A stretch of 64,000 nucleotides of DNA. It comes from Nitrospirota bacterium (GTDB lineage Bacteria; Nitrospirota; Thermodesulfovibrionia; SZUA-242). The notes beneath the pieces were generated by a model. It made no database searches and was not told the DNA's origin. It was given only the letters and a program-made list of their open reading frames with translations. The position numbers and the translations under genes were made by a program. Shown here piece after piece: positions 4,878 to 34,986 of the stretch (its first letter is position 1; the number at the start of each line of letters is the position of its first letter). The DNA is taken from contig JACRHH010000001.1 in NCBI GenBank assembly GCA_016212095.1, positions 62,001 through 126,000 of the forward strand, given 5' to 3'.

Positions 4878-6923
4878 CTATTTCCCTCCAACCACCGGTA
4901 TCCTGACGGTGAAAGTCGTTCCCTTGCCGACCTCGCTCTCGACCTTGATGTCGCCGTTATGCTTCTTGATGATGTCGTATGTGATGCTCAAGCCCAGGCC
5001 GGTTCCCTTGCCGACCGGCTTTGTCGTGTAGAACGGCTCAAATATCCTGTTCACGGTTTCCGGCGGAATGCCGCATCCGGTGTCGGAAACCGACGCGAAT
5101 ATGCTCTCGCCCTCAAGCCACGTGCGCACCGTGATGACGCCCTCTTTTTCTATGGCGTGCGCGGCGTTCACCAGCAGGTTCATGAAGACCTGATTGATCT
5201 GCTGGGGGTAGCATTTCGTGAGCGGCATGTCACCGTATTCCTTGACAACCTTCGCCTTGTACTTGATCTCGTTTCTTACGATGTTGATGGTGCTCTCCAT
5301 GCACTCGTTGATGTCGGCGGGCTTGTACTCCGCCTCGTCCACGCGCGAGAAGCTCTTCAAGTCCTGAACGATCTTCTTCACCCTGTCGGCGCCGTCCAGC
5401 GATTCCCTGATAAGCTCTTTTATGTCATCCGTCACGTAGTCTATCTTGAGCTTCTTTCTGGCCTGCCGCAGGTTTTCAAGTTCATCCGGCGGCGCCGTCC
5501 TGTCCAGCGCCTCGGTCTGAACCCTGATAAACTCGGTAAACTTGTCCATGTATTTGTCGAGCGAGCCAAGATTGCTTCCGATGAATCCCATGGGGTTGTT
5601 GATCTCGTGCGCCACTCCGGCGGCAAGCTGGCCGATGGAGGCCATCTTCTCCTGTTGCAGAAACTGCGCCTGCGTGGCCTGAAGCTTCTTGTACGCGCCG
5701 TCCAGCTCGCTGTTCTTCGATTCCAGGATATGCATCATGTTGTTGAACTGCTCGCCTATCCGGTAGATCGGGTCGGCTGTTGCGGCCTTGTACACGTCGC
5801 ATTCCACGCAGTTACGGTATTTGACGGCGAATTGGCCCTGAACCTTTCCGCCGCAGTAGGTTCCGGCTGTTTGCCAGCAGCGCATGGCATCCTGATTGTG
5901 GCAGGGGCAGTCGGTCTTGACGCATTGCTTCAACTCGTAGCACCGCCCAAGATTCGGGTTTTCGTACCTTATTCCGAAGTCCTGCGATGTGGATACGCGC
6001 TCGATCAGCGATGCGATCTCGTCAAGCGCGTGCTGAAGCTTGGTTCTGTGCTCATTGATCTCGAAGTTCTTTTTTTCCAGTTCCTCGGCTATGAGCCTGA
6101 TCTGCGTGGAGTCGTGAATGGCAATGACCGTTCCGGAATCGGCTGCTTCGCCGTCGCCGCGAAACGGATACGAGCTGAATATGAACCAGCGCCTGGTTGC
6201 CTCGTGATAGAGTTCCGTCTCTGTGGCAAAAAACGTGCTGGGCAGCATTCCGTGCTCGGCCAGGAACTCGTCCCATTCCCTGCCGATTATGCCGTCAAAC
6301 TCAACTCCGGTGAACTGCCTCACGGTGGAATTGCACCGTTTGATCACGCCGTCGTTGTCCACGAGAAGCACCATGTCGCCCACGCAGTCCATCGTCCGCT
6401 CCCATTCACGCTTGGCCTGCTCCACCTGATTGAAGAGCGAGGTCAACTGCTCGTGTTTGGCGTGAAGTTCGTCGCGTCCGGCCTTCAGCCTGATTTCTGC
6501 CATCTTGCGATCCGTGATGTCGCGCGCGGTATGCACCACCTGCGACACTTGTCCGTTTTCATCGATGATAGGAAAGGTCGCAACCTCGACATAGCACTTG
6601 TGTCCGTCGTTTATGTAGTGGATATGCTCCACAACCTGCGCCTCGTTGCGTTCGAGCGTTTCCTTCAGCGGGCAGACATGATTGGGCAGGCCGCATGGCT
6701 CAACGGTTCCGTGCGTGATCTCGTGGCACTTGCGCCCGATAACCTCGCTCTCCGTCAGCCCGTACTCGGAAAGAAACGCCTTGTTCACCCCGACAATGCG
6801 CAGGGTGCGCACATCGATGATGGAGATGGCGTCCCTCATGCTGTCGAGCACCGTGCGGGCGAAAGATGATGACATCACAGTGGCGGAAACATCGTCCGAA
6901 ACCGGAGACGCCGGTTTAACCAT
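4878..6923 (-). CDS. PAS-PAS histidine kinase with embedded two-CW cysteine-rich domain
   Basis: Protein of 681 residues, soluble. PAS1 (about 20-140) carries KCHEITHG (Cys66) followed by Cys77 and Cys84. PAS2 spans about 165-280. A cysteine-rich segment at about 322-380 (Cys328, 334, 339, 341, 349, 357, 372, 375) has the signature CW...GTYCGGKVQG...CVEC, also seen in the small proteins at 38498-39417. A coiled coil then leads to HisKA with His439 in GVAHEINNPMGF and a complete HATPase (DTGCGIPPE, GKGTGLGLS). It is the promoter-proximal gene of the six-gene operon running to the left edge. Clustered cysteines suggest metal, Fe-S or thiol redox sensing; that is inference. Confidence 0.9.
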   Translation of the reverse strand: MVKPASPVSDDVSATVMSSSFARTVLDSMRDAISIIDVRTLRIVGVNKAFLSEYGLTESEVIGRKCHEITHGTVEPCGLPNHVCPLKETLERNEAQVVEHIHYINDGHKCYVEVATFPIIDENGQVSQVVHTARDITDRKMAEIRLKAGRDELHAKHEQLTSLFNQVEQAKREWERTMDCVGDMVLLVDNDGVIKRCNSTVRQFTGVEFDGIIGREWDEFLAEHGMLPSTFFATETELYHEATRRWFIFSSYPFRGDGEAADSGTVIAIHDSTQIRLIAEELEKKNFEINEHRTKLQHALDEIASLIERVSTSQDFGIRYENPNLGRCYELKQCVKTDCPCHNQDAMRCWQTAGTYCGGKVQGQFAVKYRNCVECDVYKAATADPIYRIGEQFNNMMHILESKNSELDGAYKKLQATQAQFLQQEKMASIGQLAAGVAHEINNPMGFIGSNLGSLDKYMDKFTEFIRVQTEALDRTAPPDELENLRQARKKLKIDYVTDDIKELIRESLDGADRVKKIVQDLKSFSRVDEAEYKPADINECMESTINIVRNEIKYKAKVVKEYGDMPLTKCYPQQINQVFMNLLVNAAHAIEKEGVITVRTWLEGESIFASVSDTGCGIPPETVNRIFEPFYTTKPVGKGTGLGLSITYDIIKKHNGDIKVESEVGKGTTFTVRIPVVGGK

Positions 6924-10604: not shown

Positions 10605-10691
10605 GCCCGAGTGGCGGAACTGGTAGACGCAAGGGACTTAAAATCCCTCGGCCTACGGGCCGTGCCGGTTCGATTCCGGCCTCGGGCACCA
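10605..10691 (+). tRNA. tRNA-Leu, anticodon TAA
   Basis: A complete class II tRNA. The acceptor arm GCCCGAG (10605-10611) pairs with CTCGGGC (10681-10687). The anticodon stem AGGGA/TCCCT encloses the loop CTTAAAA, so the anticodon is TAA and it reads UUA. A long variable arm and the TTCGATTC T-loop are present, and CCA is encoded at 10689-10691. A short hairpin with a T run follows at once and may help termination. Confidence 0.97.
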
Positions 10692-10728: not shown

Positions 10729-10771
10729 GAAGGGCCTTCAATGCCGTTTCCGGCTTTGAAGAACCCTTCCT
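10729..10771. terminator. large imperfect hairpin after tRNA-Leu
   Basis: Arms GAAGGG plus CTTCAA on the left pair with TTGAAG plus CCCTTC on the right, and an inner GCCG/CGGC stem closes a short loop, giving a long interrupted hairpin. Its place between the tRNA and the opposing cytochrome operon fits a transcription terminator, though the T tract is poor. Confidence 0.5.
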
Positions 10772-10796
10772 CCCCCGTTGGGCCGACGGGAGCCTG

Positions 10797-10980
10797 TCTC
10801 CCGGCGCTTGTCGCCGGGATGTAAAATCTCTCCCGGCGCTTGTCGCCGGGATGTAAAATCTCTCCCGGCGCTTGTCGCCGGGATGTAAAATCTCTCCCGG
10901 CGCTTGTCGCCGGGACGTGAAATTAACCGGCTGTGCCGGGCGGTTAAACCAATCTCCCGGCGCTTGTCGCCGGGATGTTA
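10797..10980. repeat. tandem 32-bp hairpin repeat
   Basis: Five copies of a unit whose core is CCCGGCG CTTGT CGCCGGG, a 7-bp perfect stem with a 5-nt loop. Cores begin at 10800, 10832, 10864, 10896 and 10956: the first four are exact 32-bp tandem copies, and the fifth is separated by a different hairpin (TTAACCG...CGGTTAA, about 10923-10947). The array fills most of the 315 bp between tRNA-Leu and the cytochrome stop codon. There are no spacers of CRISPR type. It could act as multiple terminators, as an mRNA 3' stabiliser, or be a mobile palindromic repeat. Confidence 0.85.
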
Positions 10981-11006: not shown

Positions 11007-13796
11007 CTATTCCACAGTTCCGTTAACGTGCTTTGCCTTGTTGCTGAAACTGATGTTATCAGCATTGACATGCGCATGACAAGAACTGCAACTGCTGTTT
11101 GCCGAATGGCCGCCTCCTGGCGGGTAGCCGTGGCATCTGGAACAGTCGGCAACGGTTCCATTCAGATAGTTTACATCGTTCCAGACCGGATCGGTTCCGG
11201 AAGACCATCCGTGCTCAAATTTGCCGCCGTCGTGGCAGTAAGTGTTTGAGCATTTGCGAAGGGCGTAATCGTAAGCCGGTGAAGCCGCGTTGGTTTTCGA
11301 AAGAGCGCCGAAAGTCACTTCCGCCCGTACATCGCCGTCAATATGCGTGGGATCATCAACATGGCCGAATGCGGGCACAATGTGGCATTCGTTGCAGGCA
11401 ATGTTCGGGCTGTAATTGCTGGATGCAAGCAGATGAGCCTGATGCGCTCCCACCTGCGGATCGTCGGCGGAGATGTCGCCGTTCAGATCGGGCGGAGGAG
11501 CGTCGTTTATGTTTCTTCCGCCATGGCAAACATCGCAGGGCATGTCAACCACCTCCACCGTGCCGTTTACATGAAGCGTCGGGTTCTTGAACGAAAGGTT
11601 GTCTGTGTTGACGTTTGTGTGGCAACCGGTTCCGTTGAACGTGCCGCAACCGGCATCGCGCGGATGGCCGTTGCCGGGCGGATAGCCGTGGCACTTAGCG
11701 CAGTCCGCAATCGAACCGGCCAGATACGATGTGTCGTTCCACACCGGATCGGTTCCGGCGGAAAAGCCAAACTTGAAGTTCCTGCCGTCGTGGCAGTAGG
11801 TGTTGGAGCAGGTGCGCGCGCTGTAATTGTAGGCTGGCGACGCGCCGTTGCTTTTTGACAGCGCGCCGAATGTTACTTCAGCAGCATTGTCGCCGTCGCG
11901 GTGTGACGCATCGTTAACCGCCGCAGGAACGATGTGGCATTCCACGCAGGCAATCGTTGCGCTTATTCCGTCCGTTGCCTGAAGATGCGTCTGGTGCGCT
12001 CCAACCTTTGGCGAAGATGCCGCGGTGTTTCCATCGAGATCGAGCGGCGGCGCGTTGTTCACCGCAACATCTCCGTGGCAGGAGTAGCATGGGCCGTCCA
12101 CTGCCTCGATCGTTTTGTTCAGATGTTTTGTGGCATCGTTGAAGCCGGTGTCGTTGGCCGAAACATGCGGGTGGCATTTGCTGCAATCCGAATCCGCCGG
12201 ATGAGCGCCGCCGGGCGGATAACCGTGACACTTCGAGCAGTCGGCAGCCGCGCCTGACAGATATGATGAATCGCTCCAGACCGGATCAGCGCCGGAAGAC
12301 CAGCCGTGCTTGAACCGCTTTCCGTCGTGGCAGTATACGCCGGAACATGCGCGTGTTGTGAAGTTGTAGCTGCCTTCCGAACCGTTCGCCGAGGCGATCG
12401 AGCCGGAAAGCGGAACCTCGGCCAGATGATCGCCGTCGCGGTGGGCCGGAGACTCGACGCTTGCCGGCACGACGTGGCACTGATCGCACGAGACCGGATT
12501 CGAATACCCTGACGACGCCAGAAGATGCGTCTGGTGCGCTCCAACCTTCGCGGAATCGGTCAACCCGGAGTTGTCAAGAGGCGGCGCCGGATTCACTCCT
12601 TCGGTTCCATGGCAGGCGTAGCACGAGCTGACGCTCTCATCCACGTATCCGTTCATGTGGCGAAGCGGATTCGAAAAGCTCTTGTTGTCGCTGCTTACGT
12701 GCAGATGGCATTTCGCGCAATCGTTCTTCTGCGGGTGGTTTTGCGAAGGCGGATAGCCGTGACACTTCGAGCAGTCGGCAACCGTGCCGGTCAGATACGC
12801 GGTTTCGTTCCATTCCGGATCGGTTCCGGCAGATCCTTTTGCCGGGAAGTTTCTGCCGTCGTGGCAATATGTGTTGGAGCATTTGCGCGTGGTGAAACTG
12901 TATGCGGGCAACGCGCCGTTGTTTGTGGCAAGTTTTCCGGCAAGCGGCACTTCGGCAGTGAAGTCGCCGTCCCTGTGGCCGGTTTCGTCGATGCTGTACG
13001 GGAATGTGTGGCATTCGCCGCAGGCAACCGTGTCGCTATAGCCGTGCTTCGCCGTCAGGTGAGATTGGTGAGCGCCGACTTTGGGGTCGGATTGATCGTT
13101 TGCGCCGGAAAGCGAATATGGCGGGGCGATGTTCACGCCTTTGGTTCCGTGGCAGGCGTAGCACGATCCGCCGCCCGGAGTGGCGTGGCAGAGCGTTCCG
13201 TTAAAACATCCGGCAGGCGATCCTGTTTCGGGTTTCGCCCCGGCAAAAGTTCCCTCATGGCATATTGCGCAGGCAGGCGCGTTTCCTTCGTCAACATCCG
13301 TGTGCCGCCTTGCTGCGCCGCGCCATGGCTTTGGCGCGTGCGGTGTTGTCTTGTGGCAGGCGTAGCAAGACTTGCCGACAAGTCCGCCGGTTAAATCGCC
13401 GCCGTGGCACTTCCGGCAGTTGGCCATGCCATTTATTCCGGACGGCGCGGCCTTCGCCGCAGCGCCGTGTTCCGACGGCTCGCCCCATGTTGCCGAGACA
13501 TGGGCGCCCGGCCCTCCGGCGTGGCATGTCTGGCCGCTTCTGCCTGTGTTGAAACAGGTAACAGCCGATATGCCGCCCTTGAGGTCGGTTCCGTGGCACT
13601 GGGCGCACTGGTTCGATTTCGACAACCCGCCCGACGCGCTTATTGGCTCGTTAAGAAATGTTGCGCCGTGGGCCTTGATCCAGCCGCTCGAATGGCCCGA
13701 ATCCGCCGTGTAAACCGTGCCGCCGCGCGAATCGCTGCATCCGGCCATCGCCAGCGCCGCGATAACCGTCAACGCCATGCGGGCTATTTGTGACAT
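11007..13796 (-). CDS. large multiheme c-type cytochrome lipoprotein with CxxxxCH/CxxCH modules
   Basis: Protein of 929 residues from ATG 13796, where a lipoprotein signal (ALAMAGC) begins; an earlier in-frame start lacks a signal. I count 19 CxxCH and four CxxxxCH motifs (CSNTYCH type), plus three wider C-xn-CH motifs, so about 23 to 26 hemes. The C-terminal three quarters is four tandem modules of roughly 175 residues: CYACHG, AHQTHL, CxECH, HRDGD, CSNTYCHDG, DPVWN, DCSKCHGYPP, CSKCH. The CxxxxCH...CxxCH pair is a named Geobacter-type domain. With the preceding pentaheme lipoprotein (13-bp overlap) and beta-barrel it probably forms an outer-membrane electron conduit, this protein being the surface partner. 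Confidence 0.92.
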   Translation of the reverse strand: MSQIARMALTVIAALAMAGCSDSRGGTVYTADSGHSSGWIKAHGATFLNEPISASGGLSKSNQCAQCHGTDLKGGISAVTCFNTGRSGQTCHAGGPGAHVSATWGEPSEHGAAAKAAPSGINGMANCRKCHGGDLTGGLVGKSCYACHKTTPHAPKPWRGAARRHTDVDEGNAPACAICHEGTFAGAKPETGSPAGCFNGTLCHATPGGGSCYACHGTKGVNIAPPYSLSGANDQSDPKVGAHQSHLTAKHGYSDTVACGECHTFPYSIDETGHRDGDFTAEVPLAGKLATNNGALPAYSFTTRKCSNTYCHDGRNFPAKGSAGTDPEWNETAYLTGTVADCSKCHGYPPSQNHPQKNDCAKCHLHVSSDNKSFSNPLRHMNGYVDESVSSCYACHGTEGVNPAPPLDNSGLTDSAKVGAHQTHLLASSGYSNPVSCDQCHVVPASVESPAHRDGDHLAEVPLSGSIASANGSEGSYNFTTRACSGVYCHDGKRFKHGWSSGADPVWSDSSYLSGAAADCSKCHGYPPGGAHPADSDCSKCHPHVSANDTGFNDATKHLNKTIEAVDGPCYSCHGDVAVNNAPPLDLDGNTAASSPKVGAHQTHLQATDGISATIACVECHIVPAAVNDASHRDGDNAAEVTFGALSKSNGASPAYNYSARTCSNTYCHDGRNFKFGFSAGTDPVWNDTSYLAGSIADCAKCHGYPPGNGHPRDAGCGTFNGTGCHTNVNTDNLSFKNPTLHVNGTVEVVDMPCDVCHGGRNINDAPPPDLNGDISADDPQVGAHQAHLLASSNYSPNIACNECHIVPAFGHVDDPTHIDGDVRAEVTFGALSKTNAASPAYDYALRKCSNTYCHDGGKFEHGWSSGTDPVWNDVNYLNGTVADCSRCHGYPPGGGHSANSSCSSCHAHVNADNISFSNKAKHVNGTVE

Positions 13797-14227
13797 GCCG
13801 AACACCTTGCGTTGTTGGCTCTGCCGTGGCAGACAAAGCACCGCGCCGGATCGATGCGTCCGTCCATCTTGTGCTGCGTCATGTAGTCGCCCCTGTGCGG
13901 CGAAAACCGCTCAGGCGAAGTTCTGTATTTCATGTCGGGCGCAAGCTCTTCCCTTCCGGCGTGGCAGTCGGAACAGAACGACGGCGCGTGGCAGACCGTG
14001 CATATCTGACGGCCCTGAGCGGCGTATGAGGAATGCTTTCGCGCGAAATCCGGCGTGTGATCATACGCCAGCTTCGGGTCGTCTCCGTGGCAGCCTGAGC
14101 ATATCGGCGCTGTCGTGAGCTCGAACGGATGCGATTTCCGCAGGCTGCCGTCCCTGGAGCACGCCGATACGGCAAGCAGAATCGAAATGACCGATAGCGA
14201 AATTAAGGTTAAAAACTTCCTGTTCAT
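13784..14227 (-). CDS. pentaheme c-type cytochrome lipoprotein
   Basis: Protein of 147 residues starting at ATG 14227 (MNRKFLTLIS), 2 nt after the stop of the beta-barrel gene. A lipobox (LLAVSAC) ends the signal peptide. Five CxxCH motifs follow: CSGCH, CTVCH, CSDCH, CFVCH and CSACH. In known porin-cytochrome conduits a small periplasmic or lipid-anchored cytochrome inserts into the barrel; this protein is suited to that role (inference from context). It overlaps the downstream large cytochrome by 13 bp, so all three genes are probably co-translated. Confidence 0.88.
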   Translation of the reverse strand: MNRKFLTLISLSVISILLAVSACSRDGSLRKSHPFELTTAPICSGCHGDDPKLAYDHTPDFARKHSSYAAQGRQICTVCHAPSFCSDCHAGREELAPDMKYRTSPERFSPHRGDYMTQHKMDGRIDPARCFVCHGRANNARCSACHK

Positions 14228-31296: not shown

Positions 31297-31739
31297 ATAA
31301 GGCGCTTGCGTCGCATGAAGTTATTGCCATCGACACCTGCGTCTGGATATACCACTTCGAAAATCACCCCCGATACGGCGAATTGACATCCAGAATATTC
31401 AGGTCGGTAAGTTCAGGCAGATGCCGTGCGGTGATGTCGGAAATCAGCCTGTTCGAACTGTTGGTTCGCCCTCTCAGTCTGGCGCGTCAGGATGTGGCGG
31501 ATGAATATGAGGCGCTTCTGACGCATTTCCCGAACCTTGCACTTGCCACCATAAGCCGCCGGATACTTGTTCGGGCAGCGTCGATACGCGCTGAATACGG
31601 ATTCCGCACGCCGGACGCAATTATTCTGGCTACCGGCATTGTTGAGAGGGCAACGCTTATGATTACGAACGATATGCGATGGAAGCGCGTCAGCGGCATT
31701 GAAGTGTTGTGCCTGGACGGGCTTGCCTCCGATAATTAG
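31284..31739 (+). CDS. PIN-domain toxin, probable CTG start
   Basis: Protein of 151 residues if started at CTG 31284. This frame contains the essential PIN N-terminus VIAIDTCVWIYHFE, with the first catalytic Asp, then SEISLFELLV and the C-terminal acidic pair in TPDAIILATG and TNDMRW. No ATG, GTG or TTG exists between the in-frame stop at 31278 and TTG 31383, and starting at 31383 would remove the catalytic Asp. AGGGAGGAA (31267-31275) is correctly spaced for CTG 31284. A frameshifted gene originally started at GTG 31277 is the alternative. PIN toxins of AbrB modules are RNases, often cutting tRNA. Confidence 0.75.
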   Translation: MESLDKALASHEVIAIDTCVWIYHFENHPRYGELTSRIFRSVSSGRCRAVMSEISLFELLVRPLSLARQDVADEYEALLTHFPNLALATISRRILVRAASIRAEYGFRTPDAIILATGIVERATLMITNDMRWKRVSGIEVLCLDGLASDN

Positions 31740-31755
31740 CCTTTCTAGTGTTGCC

Positions 31756-34700
31756 ATGACCCACACCTCCGCATACCCCCACGTTTCCCTCTCGGCATCC
31801 GCCGGCTCCGGCAAGACATACGCGCTTACGCTCCGGCTGCTTGGAATGCTGATGCGCGGCGTTCCGCCCGAAACGGTTCTCTGCACCACGTTCACAAACA
31901 AGGCCACTCACGAGATGGCCGAGCGGCTGATGGCGCGAATCGACACACTTGCCGGCTGGACGCCTGACGACGCTGAAAAGACAGCGAAAGCTGCCGAAAT
32001 TCTTGCAAATATGGCGGGACGGCAGAGAGATGATGTTGGCCTCGATGAAATCGCCGACGCGAGCCTGCGGGCGCGGGCGGCGCGAAACAGTCTGCTTGAA
32101 AACTACTCGCGCCTGAACATCGTTACGATGGACAGTTTTTTCAACTCGATCATCAGGCTGTTTCCGTTTGAAACAGGCGTTTCGCCCGATTTCGAAATCA
32201 TGACCGACGCAGAAGACGCCGGGGTTTTCCGCGCCGCCATGGACAGGCTTGTGGCCGAAATCGAGAAGATGCCCGAAGACCGCGAGATTCTGAAAAGCCT
32301 TACATTATCTTTAAGCCGGACGGTGAACGATCCGAACGCGCTTCTGAAAGAGCGTTTCGACACGCTTTCCCCCCGGCGCGCGGGCATCAGGCATCTGGCC
32401 GAAAAAATTGAACGGGCTGCCGTGATCGCCAGCATGAAACGCCTCGATGAGACGGCGGCGATGGCGACGGCTGCGGCACACAGCTTCGGCGCGGCGCTTG
32501 TCCGGCACGAGGGCGCGATGTCGGAAAGCGGCAGGAAGGCGGTTCGCAAATGCCTGAACGCCCAGTCGCCGCAGGACGCGCTATCGCTCACGCCGTTTCA
32601 GAAGGAAACTTGCCGCGAGTACAGCTTTTTCAAAAAGCTGCCGCCCGATGATCTCCTGGACACTGCGTTCGACGACGCGCGCAGCCAGCTTGCCGCCTAC
32701 ATCGCGGCAAAAAACGAGTTCGTCATATCCGCGTTATTGTTCTTCTTTCAACGATATATAGCCATCGCCGACGGCAGGAAGCGCGAAATGCGCCGACTTT
32801 CTTTTTCCGACATCGAGCGGCTTTGCTTCGAGCTTCTCGCCGGAGACAGCGGTGAATCGCCCGGATTTTCAGCCGTGAGGGACGACCGCGAATTTTTCTA
32901 CTACCGCCTCGACACGCGCCTGAAGCATCTGCTGATGGACGAGTTTCAGGACACCAACACGGTGCAGTGGGAGATATTCAGGCCGATTGTGGAGGAGATA
33001 ACTGCCGACAGCGAAGGCTCGTTCTTCTACGTGGGCGACCCAAAGCAGGCGATCTACCGTTTCAGGGGCGGCGAAAGCGGGCTGTTTGAGTTTGTGCGAG
33101 CGTCGCTTGCCGACCGGATAGAGACCGGCTCGCTCACGAACAACTACCGCTCAACCGTCACGATTGTCGAGTTTGTGAACCGCGTGTTCGGCAGCGTTCA
33201 AGGCCGGTTCGATTATGCCTTCGAGCCTCAGGGCGCATATTCGCAGTCTGCCGGTTTCGTGGAGATTACCGGCGTGCCGCGTCCTGAACGCGGAAGCGAC
33301 GCCGATCCGGTGGGCGATGCCGTTGTGGAGCGGGTGAAATCGCTTCTGGGCGGCGGCGTTCCGGCGGGTGAAGTCGCCGTGCTATGCCGGAAGAACGATA
33401 GCTGCATCAGAATAGCCGAACTGCTTGAATCCGCCGGAATAGCCACGCAGACCGAGAAAAAGGACACGCTGCTTTCGAGCAATGCGGTGCGGACGGTTGT
33501 GGGCCTGCTCCGGTATCTGGCCGATAGCTCGGCGAAAATTCATCTGGCCGATTTCATCGCGCAACTGCCGGACATTGCGAACGCCGACGGACTGCGGCGG
33601 CTGCGTCAGGCGGAGAACATGCTTGAAGCCCTTAAAAATATATCGCCTGAGGCGCACGAACGTATAAGGCGCATCCGTAACAGCGTTGATTTCGCGCCTG
33701 TAAAAAGTGTGGTTGCGGCGATAATCAGGGAATTCGGGCTTGGCGCGCGCTTTGCCGACGCCGAAAATCTTCTGCGGCTGATCGAGGTTTCCGGCGGTTT
33801 TACCGGAAACGGCGTTAACGGGCTTCGCGGCTTTCTGGACGATCTCGACCGCTACGGCGACGGCATTCCGCTTGCATCTCCCACGCGCGCGAACGCGGTT
33901 CAGCTTCTTACGGTGCATAAGGCCAAGGGGCTTGAGTTCGGCGCGGTAATCCTGCCGGAGGTGGATGATGATATCACGTTCAACCGCAGCCGATCCGACT
34001 TCATGTTTCCGTGCGACGGGCAGTTCCGGCTGGAGGGCATTTATCTTACGCCGTCGAAGGATGAACTGCCGTTTGCGGGCGGGCTTGCCGGAATTTACAG
34101 GCGGGAAGAGCGTAAAAACCTTGTCGATGAGCTGAACCTTTTATATGTGGCGCTCACGCGGGCCAAAACAGGGCTTTTTATCATCTCGGCTGTGAAGCCG
34201 CCATCGAAGAAAAACGACGACGAGCCTCGCCTGAACTGGTTTTCGCTAACTGCCGAGGCACTCGGCATCGGTCAAATCCCTGCCGAGGCACTCGGCATCG
34301 GTCAAATCCCTGTCGAGGCGCTCGGCGTGGACGCGGGCAAGGCGGGCGCATTGCCCGCAGTTTTGTATTGCGAGGGCGACATGTCGGCGTTCAGGCCGGT
34401 TGAAGCGATAGCCGCTGAAACCGTTCCGGAAGCGCGCGACGGCATCCCGCGTCTTGCGGCTGGAGCAGCCGCGCGAATAGACGAGACAGGGGAAGATGAC
34501 GGCGATGACGAGTATGCAACCGCTTCGCCCGGTAATTTTCTGGCGCGAAAGTTCGGCGAGGCGTTTCATATCGCCATGGAAAACCTGCCGCCCATACCGG
34601 ACGCCGAACGCGCTTATTCGGCTGCGGTTGCGCGCTACGGCAGGTTTCTGGATGAAAATGCTCGAAAAAGGCTCAGACGCGCCATCGAGAGCGCGGCCCG

Positions 34701-34986
34701 GCATCCCGGACTCTTGTCGCTGATGCGCGGCGGCAGGGTGATGACCGAGCTTCCGATCACGCTGCCCGGCGGCGCCATGAGAAAGGCCGACGCGGTGTTT
34801 GTGACCGACAGCGAGGTGGTGGTGGTCGATTACAAAACCGGCTACAACGAGGCGATGCTTCCGCGATACCGCGAGCAGGTGGGCGAATACGCGAGGCTGC
34901 TTGGCGGCCTTATGCCGGGCAGGAAAACGCGCGGAATGCTGGTGTTTGTGGATGGAAAAGGCGCGCGGATGGAGAGAGTGGGGTGA
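31756..34986 (+). CDS. UvrD/AddA-RecB-type helicase-nuclease
   Basis: Protein of 1076 residues from ATG 31756. Superfamily 1A motifs: Walker A ASAGSGKT (13-20), CTTFTNKATHEMAERL (Ia), LLMDEFQDTN (II), GDPKQAIYRFRGGE (III), NNYRST (IV), HKAKGLEF (V) and VALTRAKT (VI). The C-terminus has a PD-(D/E)xK nuclease end (RKADAVFV...VVVDYKTG, then QVGEY). This architecture is AddA/RecB, which processes double-strand breaks with AddB or RecC; no such partner gene is in the window. The linker before the nuclease contains a 30-bp tandem duplication and palindromes (34251-34358). Toxin-antitoxin modules flank it. Confidence 0.88.
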   Translation: MTHTSAYPHVSLSASAGSGKTYALTLRLLGMLMRGVPPETVLCTTFTNKATHEMAERLMARIDTLAGWTPDDAEKTAKAAEILANMAGRQRDDVGLDEIADASLRARAARNSLLENYSRLNIVTMDSFFNSIIRLFPFETGVSPDFEIMTDAEDAGVFRAAMDRLVAEIEKMPEDREILKSLTLSLSRTVNDPNALLKERFDTLSPRRAGIRHLAEKIERAAVIASMKRLDETAAMATAAAHSFGAALVRHEGAMSESGRKAVRKCLNAQSPQDALSLTPFQKETCREYSFFKKLPPDDLLDTAFDDARSQLAAYIAAKNEFVISALLFFFQRYIAIADGRKREMRRLSFSDIERLCFELLAGDSGESPGFSAVRDDREFFYYRLDTRLKHLLMDEFQDTNTVQWEIFRPIVEEITADSEGSFFYVGDPKQAIYRFRGGESGLFEFVRASLADRIETGSLTNNYRSTVTIVEFVNRVFGSVQGRFDYAFEPQGAYSQSAGFVEITGVPRPERGSDADPVGDAVVERVKSLLGGGVPAGEVAVLCRKNDSCIRIAELLESAGIATQTEKKDTLLSSNAVRTVVGLLRYLADSSAKIHLADFIAQLPDIANADGLRRLRQAENMLEALKNISPEAHERIRRIRNSVDFAPVKSVVAAIIREFGLGARFADAENLLRLIEVSGGFTGNGVNGLRGFLDDLDRYGDGIPLASPTRANAVQLLTVHKAKGLEFGAVILPEVDDDITFNRSRSDFMFPCDGQFRLEGIYLTPSKDELPFAGGLAGIYRREERKNLVDELNLLYVALTRAKTGLFIISAVKPPSKKNDDEPRLNWFSLTAEALGIGQIPAEALGIGQIPVEALGVDAGKAGALPAVLYCEGDMSAFRPVEAIAAETVPEARDGIPRLAAGAAARIDETGEDDGDDEYATASPGNFLARKFGEAFHIAMENLPPIPDAERAYSAAVARYGRFLDENARKRLRRAIESAARHPGLLSLMRGGRVMTELPITLPGGAMRKADAVFVTDSEVVVVDYKTGYNEAMLPRYREQVGEYARLLGGLMPGRKTRGMLVFVDGKGARMERVG
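34251..34358. repeat. in-frame palindromic repeats in helicase-nuclease linker
   Basis: A 30-bp unit (34251-34280) is repeated exactly at 34281-34310, with a partial third copy to about 34330. Each unit holds GCCGAG gca CTCGGC, a small hairpin, and encodes AEALGIGQIP. A further 8-bp inverted repeat, GCGGGCAA (34333-34340) with TTGCCCGC (34351-34358), follows. All lie in a flexible region between helicase motif VI and the nuclease domain, so they are tolerated insertions. Confidence 0.85.

Follow-up and report, generated by a model that had tools for sequence, protein, structure and literature searches.

Clusters of hairpins have been described as intrinsic-termination units by Gupta and Pal 2021 (PMC8355165). 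In the excerpts of that paper considered here, the hairpins of a cluster lie less than 15 nt apart, a U-tract is often missing, about nine in ten clusters are found within 50 nt of a stop codon, and units of two hairpins are the commonest. The same excerpts define U-shaped terminators, i.e., consecutive hairpins with a short spacer, and X-shaped terminators, which are coded from both strands. Another group of intergenic palindromes, the REP/BIME elements, is presented in excerpts of two further papers as 20-40 bp in length and high in copy number, with hypothesised roles in termination, mRNA stabilisation or supercoiling (PMC3733652, PMC8266576); in the former, REP super-families are told apart by a GTAG or CGTC tag.

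Here we describe five copies of one hairpin arrayed between a tRNA-Leu gene and a multihaem cytochrome gene, in a 64,000-nucleotide stretch of a Nitrospirota genome (the window, i.e., the whole stretch of DNA analysed). Like the hairpin clusters of the PMC8355165 excerpts, the array is a series of short hairpins, spaced by under 15 nt, soon after a stop codon, with the U-tract dispensable; unlike them, it consists of five identical hairpins, where mostly two-hairpin units are described and exact tandem copies of a single hairpin go unmentioned. Its consecutive hairpins and short spacers recall the U-shaped terminators of those excerpts, and its coding from both strands the X-shaped ones, but it departs from either in that a single hairpin is present five times, some of the copies in exact tandem, alongside unlike hairpins. 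With the REP/BIME elements, as portrayed in the excerpts of PMC3733652 and PMC8266576, it shares the character of an intergenic palindrome; however, its hairpin occupies a single site in the readable genome, whereas REPs are high-copy.

Anatomy and setting of the array

The array and its neighbours comprise the following features, with positions counted from the first base of the window.

10605-10691, + strand: tRNA-Leu gene, anticodon taa (ARAGORN; Rfam RF00005, 59.1 bits), running into the array from the left
10730-10769: long imperfect hairpin, folding at -19.0 (+ strand) and -22.9 (- strand) kcal/mol, with the - strand tail TTTAATTTC
10774-10790: weaker hairpin of about -10 kcal/mol, in 32-bp register ahead of unit 1
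10797-10828: unit 1, 32 bp, hairpin at 10799-10819 (sequence, TRF)
10829-10860: unit 2, same as unit 1, hairpin at 10831-10851 (sequence, TRF)
10861-10892: unit 3, same as unit 1, hairpin at 10863-10883 (sequence, TRF)
10893-10924: unit 4, hairpin unchanged at 10895-10915, three linker changes (script)
10923-10947: interrupting hairpin, TTAACCG/CGGTTAA or else CCGGC-TGT-GCCGG (sequence, consensus scan)
10955-10975: fifth hairpin copy, displaced; the first hairpin reached by the cytochrome transcript, 31 nt past its stop codon; terminator-like on the - strand in the consensus terminator scan, with the tail GATTGGTTTA
11007-13841, - strand: multihaem cytochrome ORF (ORF list), 944 aa in its longest reading, with its 3' end toward the array

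Within the 64-kb window, TRF reported a tandem array at 10797-10978 with a period of 32 and a score of 248. When the 64-kb sequence was shuffled 50 times under a first-order Markov model, TRF returned 15 rows altogether, the top score being 71. Thus, a chance origin of the array is excluded. Its repeated core, established by sequence reading and by script, is a perfect 21-nt hairpin, namely TCCCGGCG-CTTGT-CGCCGGGA. The stem measures 8 bp by direct reading, which corrects the 7 bp of the original prediction. The four tandem units occupy 10797-10924, successive hairpins are 11, 11, 11 and 39 nt apart, and the five together extend over 179 bp.

Four exact units and a displaced one had been proposed. 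The displaced copy is there, and units 1-3 are the same over all 32 bp, but unit 4 differs from them at unit positions 24, 27 and 32. Taken over the same 32 bases, the fifth copy departs from units 1-3 at positions 27, 29 and 30. All six differences (6/6) fall outside the 21-nt hairpin; for unit 4, the p value of a kept hairpin beside a changed linker is only 0.033. Recent amplification, also proposed, agrees reasonably well with units 1-3. Because the fifth copy is displaced and linkers have changed, however, the copies are probably not all of the same age. The 39-nt gap ahead of the fifth copy does contain, as predicted, the different hairpin TTAACCG/CGGTTAA. Two extra hairpins lie on the tRNA side, outside the span originally assigned to the array: that at 10774-10790 is possibly a diverged unit, and that at 10730-10769, given its tail, appears terminator-like for the cytochrome transcript. 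The latter is missing from the consensus scan because its stem is imperfect. With pairs restricted to 45 nt or less, the whole gap folds at -128 and -137 kcal/mol.

The placement between tRNA-Leu and cytochrome is as the original prediction had it, and the two flanking genes form convergent units. The cytochrome ORF matches the Pfam families Cytochrome_C7 (5.8e-20) and GSu_C4xC__C2xCH (1.3e-09). The draft genome comprises 2.97 Mb in 39 contigs; the array stands on a contig of 154 kb, about 72.8 kb into it. When the genomes G001 and G002 were searched with the cytochrome, neither gave a match at E 0.001; the histidine kinase to the left of tRNA-Leu has a 58% relative in G002. In G001, a single hairpin stands behind the best match to the tRNA-Leu, ahead of a same-strand ORF, and there is no array.

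Judged by the spacing that defines hairpin clusters (below 15 nt), the three 11-nt linkers fall within range and the 39-nt gap holds another hairpin; likewise, the 31 nt from the cytochrome stop codon to the first hairpin in its direction compare with the 50 nt given for clusters. The units differ from canonical terminators in their tails. Read on the + strand, i.e., from the tRNA side, the stem is followed by TGTAAAATC, with no U-tract. Read on the - strand, from the cytochrome side, it is followed by GAGATTTTACA, in which GAGA stands ahead of TTTT, so that the U4 lies 4 nt past the stem. Since the GC-rich stem has no directly adjoining U-tract, the tandem units are not canonical (L-shaped) intrinsic terminators. 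Three sites come out of the consensus terminator scan, two on the - strand (fifth copy, interrupting hairpin) and one, within the tRNA, on the + strand. This rate is near chance (1.7 expected, sd 1.5). In the host genome as sampled, a hairpin followed by at least 5 T in 8 was found at 26 of the 671 3' ends of genes and at 6 of the 715 5' ends (crude gene calls, ends at gaps above 30 bp), so that canonical terminators exist in this genome, though this test finds few of them. The genome also encodes Rho, so that arrays of this kind are not required for termination.

Rarity of the sequence and recurrence of the structure

Within what is readable of the host genome, the sequence of the hairpin is confined to this locus. 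Allowing up to 3 mismatches, the readable host genome contains five copies, all at the array; the sampled stretches include 72,000 N bases, and statements of rarity cover the readable genome. A 131-base stretch of the array gave eight matches in the host genome, two of them within the array and six at E of at least 0.34. A search of genome_contigs (84,980 species, among which records close to the host genome may be absent) with the exact 23-mer TCTCCCGGCGCTTGTCGCCGGGA gave no match. At the order level, the host genome alone matches among 3 genomes. At the class level, with up to 2 mismatches, 18 of 200 genomes match, the host included; the other 17 contribute 19 scattered single places, none in tandem, compared with 9 places for a reversed control pattern.

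The structure is less confined. Our host sample consisted of 79 stretches chosen by place and the window, i.e., 1,603,012 bp with 72,000 N, or about half of the genome. Genes were called by codon usage in the 76 stretches, out of 80, whose sequence was mostly readable, and gaps above 30 bp were scored for one hairpin with a stem of at least 6 bp present twice or more. Controls were taken from G001, G002 and 80 assorted bacterial loci. Such a repeated hairpin is found in 6 of 684 host gaps, i.e., at the window array and in five further gaps, which hold two to three copies each of unrelated sequences. Three lie among the 82 convergent gaps (the window, L135 and L244), three among the 494 codirectional gaps (L150, L154 and L182), and none among the 108 divergent gaps. 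The corresponding control counts are 1/120, 1/707 and 0/157. The repeated-hairpin architecture thus recurs in the host genome, and since every such gap has its own sequence, it is structure, not sequence, that recurs. Uniqueness in the genome, which the original prediction had named as speaking against its proposal, accordingly holds for the hairpin sequence in the readable genome and does not hold for the architecture.

Whether the architecture is enriched is a different matter. Convergent host gaps (3/82) compared with other host gaps (3/602) give p = 0.025, or 0.11 without the window array; host against control convergent gaps give p = 0.31, or 0.57 without it; and all host gaps (6/684) against all control gaps (2/984) give p = 0.07, or 0.13 without it. 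The GC content of the host sample is 0.546, compared with 0.456 for G001, 0.576 for G002 and 0.454 for the assorted loci, so that most of these controls are GC-poorer. The counts do not establish that the architecture is enriched in the host genome or that it prefers convergent gaps. A cruder count with longest-ORF genes had given 5/145 convergent gaps against 2/548 others and 0/162 control convergent gaps; it miscalled at least L182, where the gap separates two same-strand genes, and was replaced by the recount, whose codon-usage gene calls lowered the evidence for enrichment. A TRF survey of hairpin-unit arrays, likewise with crude gene calls, found six outside ORFs, of which one is CRISPR-like, across the 89.7 kb of noncoding sequence in the first 60 stretches, compared with none in G001 (27.1 kb), none in G002 (21.4 kb) and one in the assorted loci (123.0 kb).

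Three of the five other cases, L135, L244 and L154, have convergent partners supported by domains. The closest parallel is the array at 18323-18412 of L135 (contig C2, about 144323-144412), with 2.5 copies of a 36-bp unit at a TRF match of 100%. It is terminator-like and lies directly behind a tRNA-Met gene and ahead of a convergent DUF1189 ORF, so that both it and the window array consist of tandem GC-rich hairpins with a tRNA gene on one side and a convergent gene on the other. Its sequence is different, however, and in its first two copies a T6 follows within 2 bases of a CCGCCG/CGGCGG stem, which makes it look like a duplicated canonical terminator. At L244 (16672-16758), three exact copies of a GCAGGAG...CTCCTGC hairpin are present, the first of which overlaps the final codons of a carbamoyl-phosphate synthase ORF, with a convergent RRM protein beyond. 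At L154, a TPR protein faces a cytochrome c7; the recount misses this domain-supported cytochrome and therefore tallies the gap as codirectional.

At L182 (5985-6051), two hairpin copies with loops flipped (CTTG and CAAG) lie between the ATP synthase A-chain gene and a same-strand ORF resembling subunit c. Inside an atp operon a terminator would be out of place, and this pair is not a terminator site; because a similar pair sits there, such hairpins need not mean termination.

Explanations for the array

The array most likely helps to end transcripts and would then be a known type of transcript end in uncommonly regular form. More specifically, we hold with about even confidence that it is a bidirectional 3'-end hairpin cluster between convergent units, formed by local tandem duplication of a GC-rich hairpin. 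A polymerase arriving from either side would leave nascent RNA that folds into 8-bp hairpins 11 nt apart. Each of these could pause or dislodge RNA polymerase, with stopping thus distributed among a number of weak sites; the cytochrome transcript would have a backup in the final, longer hairpin with its T-rich tail. Any hairpins remaining on the transcript would also impede 3' exonucleases. Under this reading we infer that transcripts end at the array, that several hairpins outperform one, and that the array arose by local duplication. The combination of a shared structure with unshared sequences points to local hairpin duplication, and not to a mobile family or to the sites of one DNA-binding protein. 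Stacked terminators or 3' protection, the functions put forward in the original prediction, agree with the anatomy, the convergent placement, the 31 nt from the stop codon and the presence of five more repeated-hairpin gaps in the sampled genome, including the duplicated terminator behind tRNA-Met; the non-canonical tandem units and the pair inside the atp operon fit them less well.

Two serious rivals are neutral slippage and mRNA stabilisation. In the former, which we regard as possible though doubtful, the gap is under little constraint, a palindrome within it is prone to replication slippage, and the copies add nothing over a single hairpin. The identity of units 1-3 is as expected after recent slippage, and the five other cases, with their few copies of unrelated sequences in convergent and codirectional gaps alike, look like the outcome of a mutational process. 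Such an origin also agrees with excerpts of PMC3519483, which report genetic instability as a consequence of repeats, direct as well as inverted. It accounts less readily for units 4 and 5, whose linkers changed around a kept hairpin (p only 0.033 for unit 4), or for the empty divergent gaps; yet promoters may forbid insertions there, and 0/108 is not far from 6/576. The latter rival, in which the hairpins mainly shield the long cytochrome mRNA from 3'-5' exonucleases without terminating, we consider unlikely. The row of strong hairpins soon past the cytochrome stop codon, the weak U-tracts of the array and the pair within the atp operon all speak for it, but by itself it leaves the duplicated terminator behind tRNA-Met unexplained. 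It is, moreover, compatible with the hairpin-cluster reading.

The other alternatives carry far less weight. Since this is a draft assembly, its copy number could be an artefact; this is very improbable, because the hairpin span lies deep inside a long contig and the unit-specific linker changes and the interruption anchor the copies. BIMEs are short palindromes in tandem in intergenic 3' regions, and in this the array resembles them. An identity as a mobile or protein-binding palindrome array of the REP/BIME type is nevertheless extremely improbable: there is no dispersal, with five copies at one site in the readable genome at 0-3 mismatches; the 23-mer search of genome_contigs, where records near the host may be absent, gave no exact match; and a single sequence-specific binder is unlikely when every array has its own sequence. 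Finally, CRISPR arrays have unlike spacers of about repeat length between their repeats; with linkers of 11 nt, identical in units 1-3, the window array was rejected as one of these.

If the hairpin-cluster reading is true, the locus offers a clean natural test of the basis of hairpin-cluster models, namely that a group of identical hairpins, even where their U-tracts are poor, terminates better than a single hairpin. Local duplication would then be one mutational route to such clusters, and the empty search for a repeat family would be explained, as structure rather than sequence recurs in the genome. A bolder proposal, which we think improbable, is that the lineage tunes its transcript ends by tandem amplification of a resident hairpin, with copy number acting as a fast-evolving, strain-variable termination dial and the five-copy array as an extreme.

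Other repeats in the sample

Several further repeats were met and set apart from the cases above. A second tandem array in the window (34250-34326) lies in a helicase-like ORF (31699-34986), where its 30 bp amount to 10 codons and encode a 10-residue protein repeat. At L186, a hairpin followed by GAATTTTACA (6601-6673) was rejected as a relative of the unit, being within a called ORF and of 27-bp period, and a candidate at L133 (14304) falls within a long ORF. Repeated hairpins at L165, L166 and L180 appeared in the TRF survey and were dropped under the stricter gap tests of the crude count and the recount. The array at L139 (226-407) is CRISPR-like, with a repeat of about GCTTCAATGAGGCCGGGGCCGAAGCCCCGGAAATAC close to a contig end; it entered the crude count and is absent from the recount gaps. 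Repeats at 13463-13539 of the same stretch presumably resemble those at IS21-type ends and were set aside.

In the gap immediately before the ATP synthase A-chain gene of L182, at 5141-5240, is an exact array of 2.9 copies of 34 bp with TTGACA words, in which the hairpin finder found no hairpin and which is possibly a repeated promoter part. At L165, a 276-bp repeat in 4.8 copies (20-1351) falls nearly all in a called ORF and consists of repeated coding modules.
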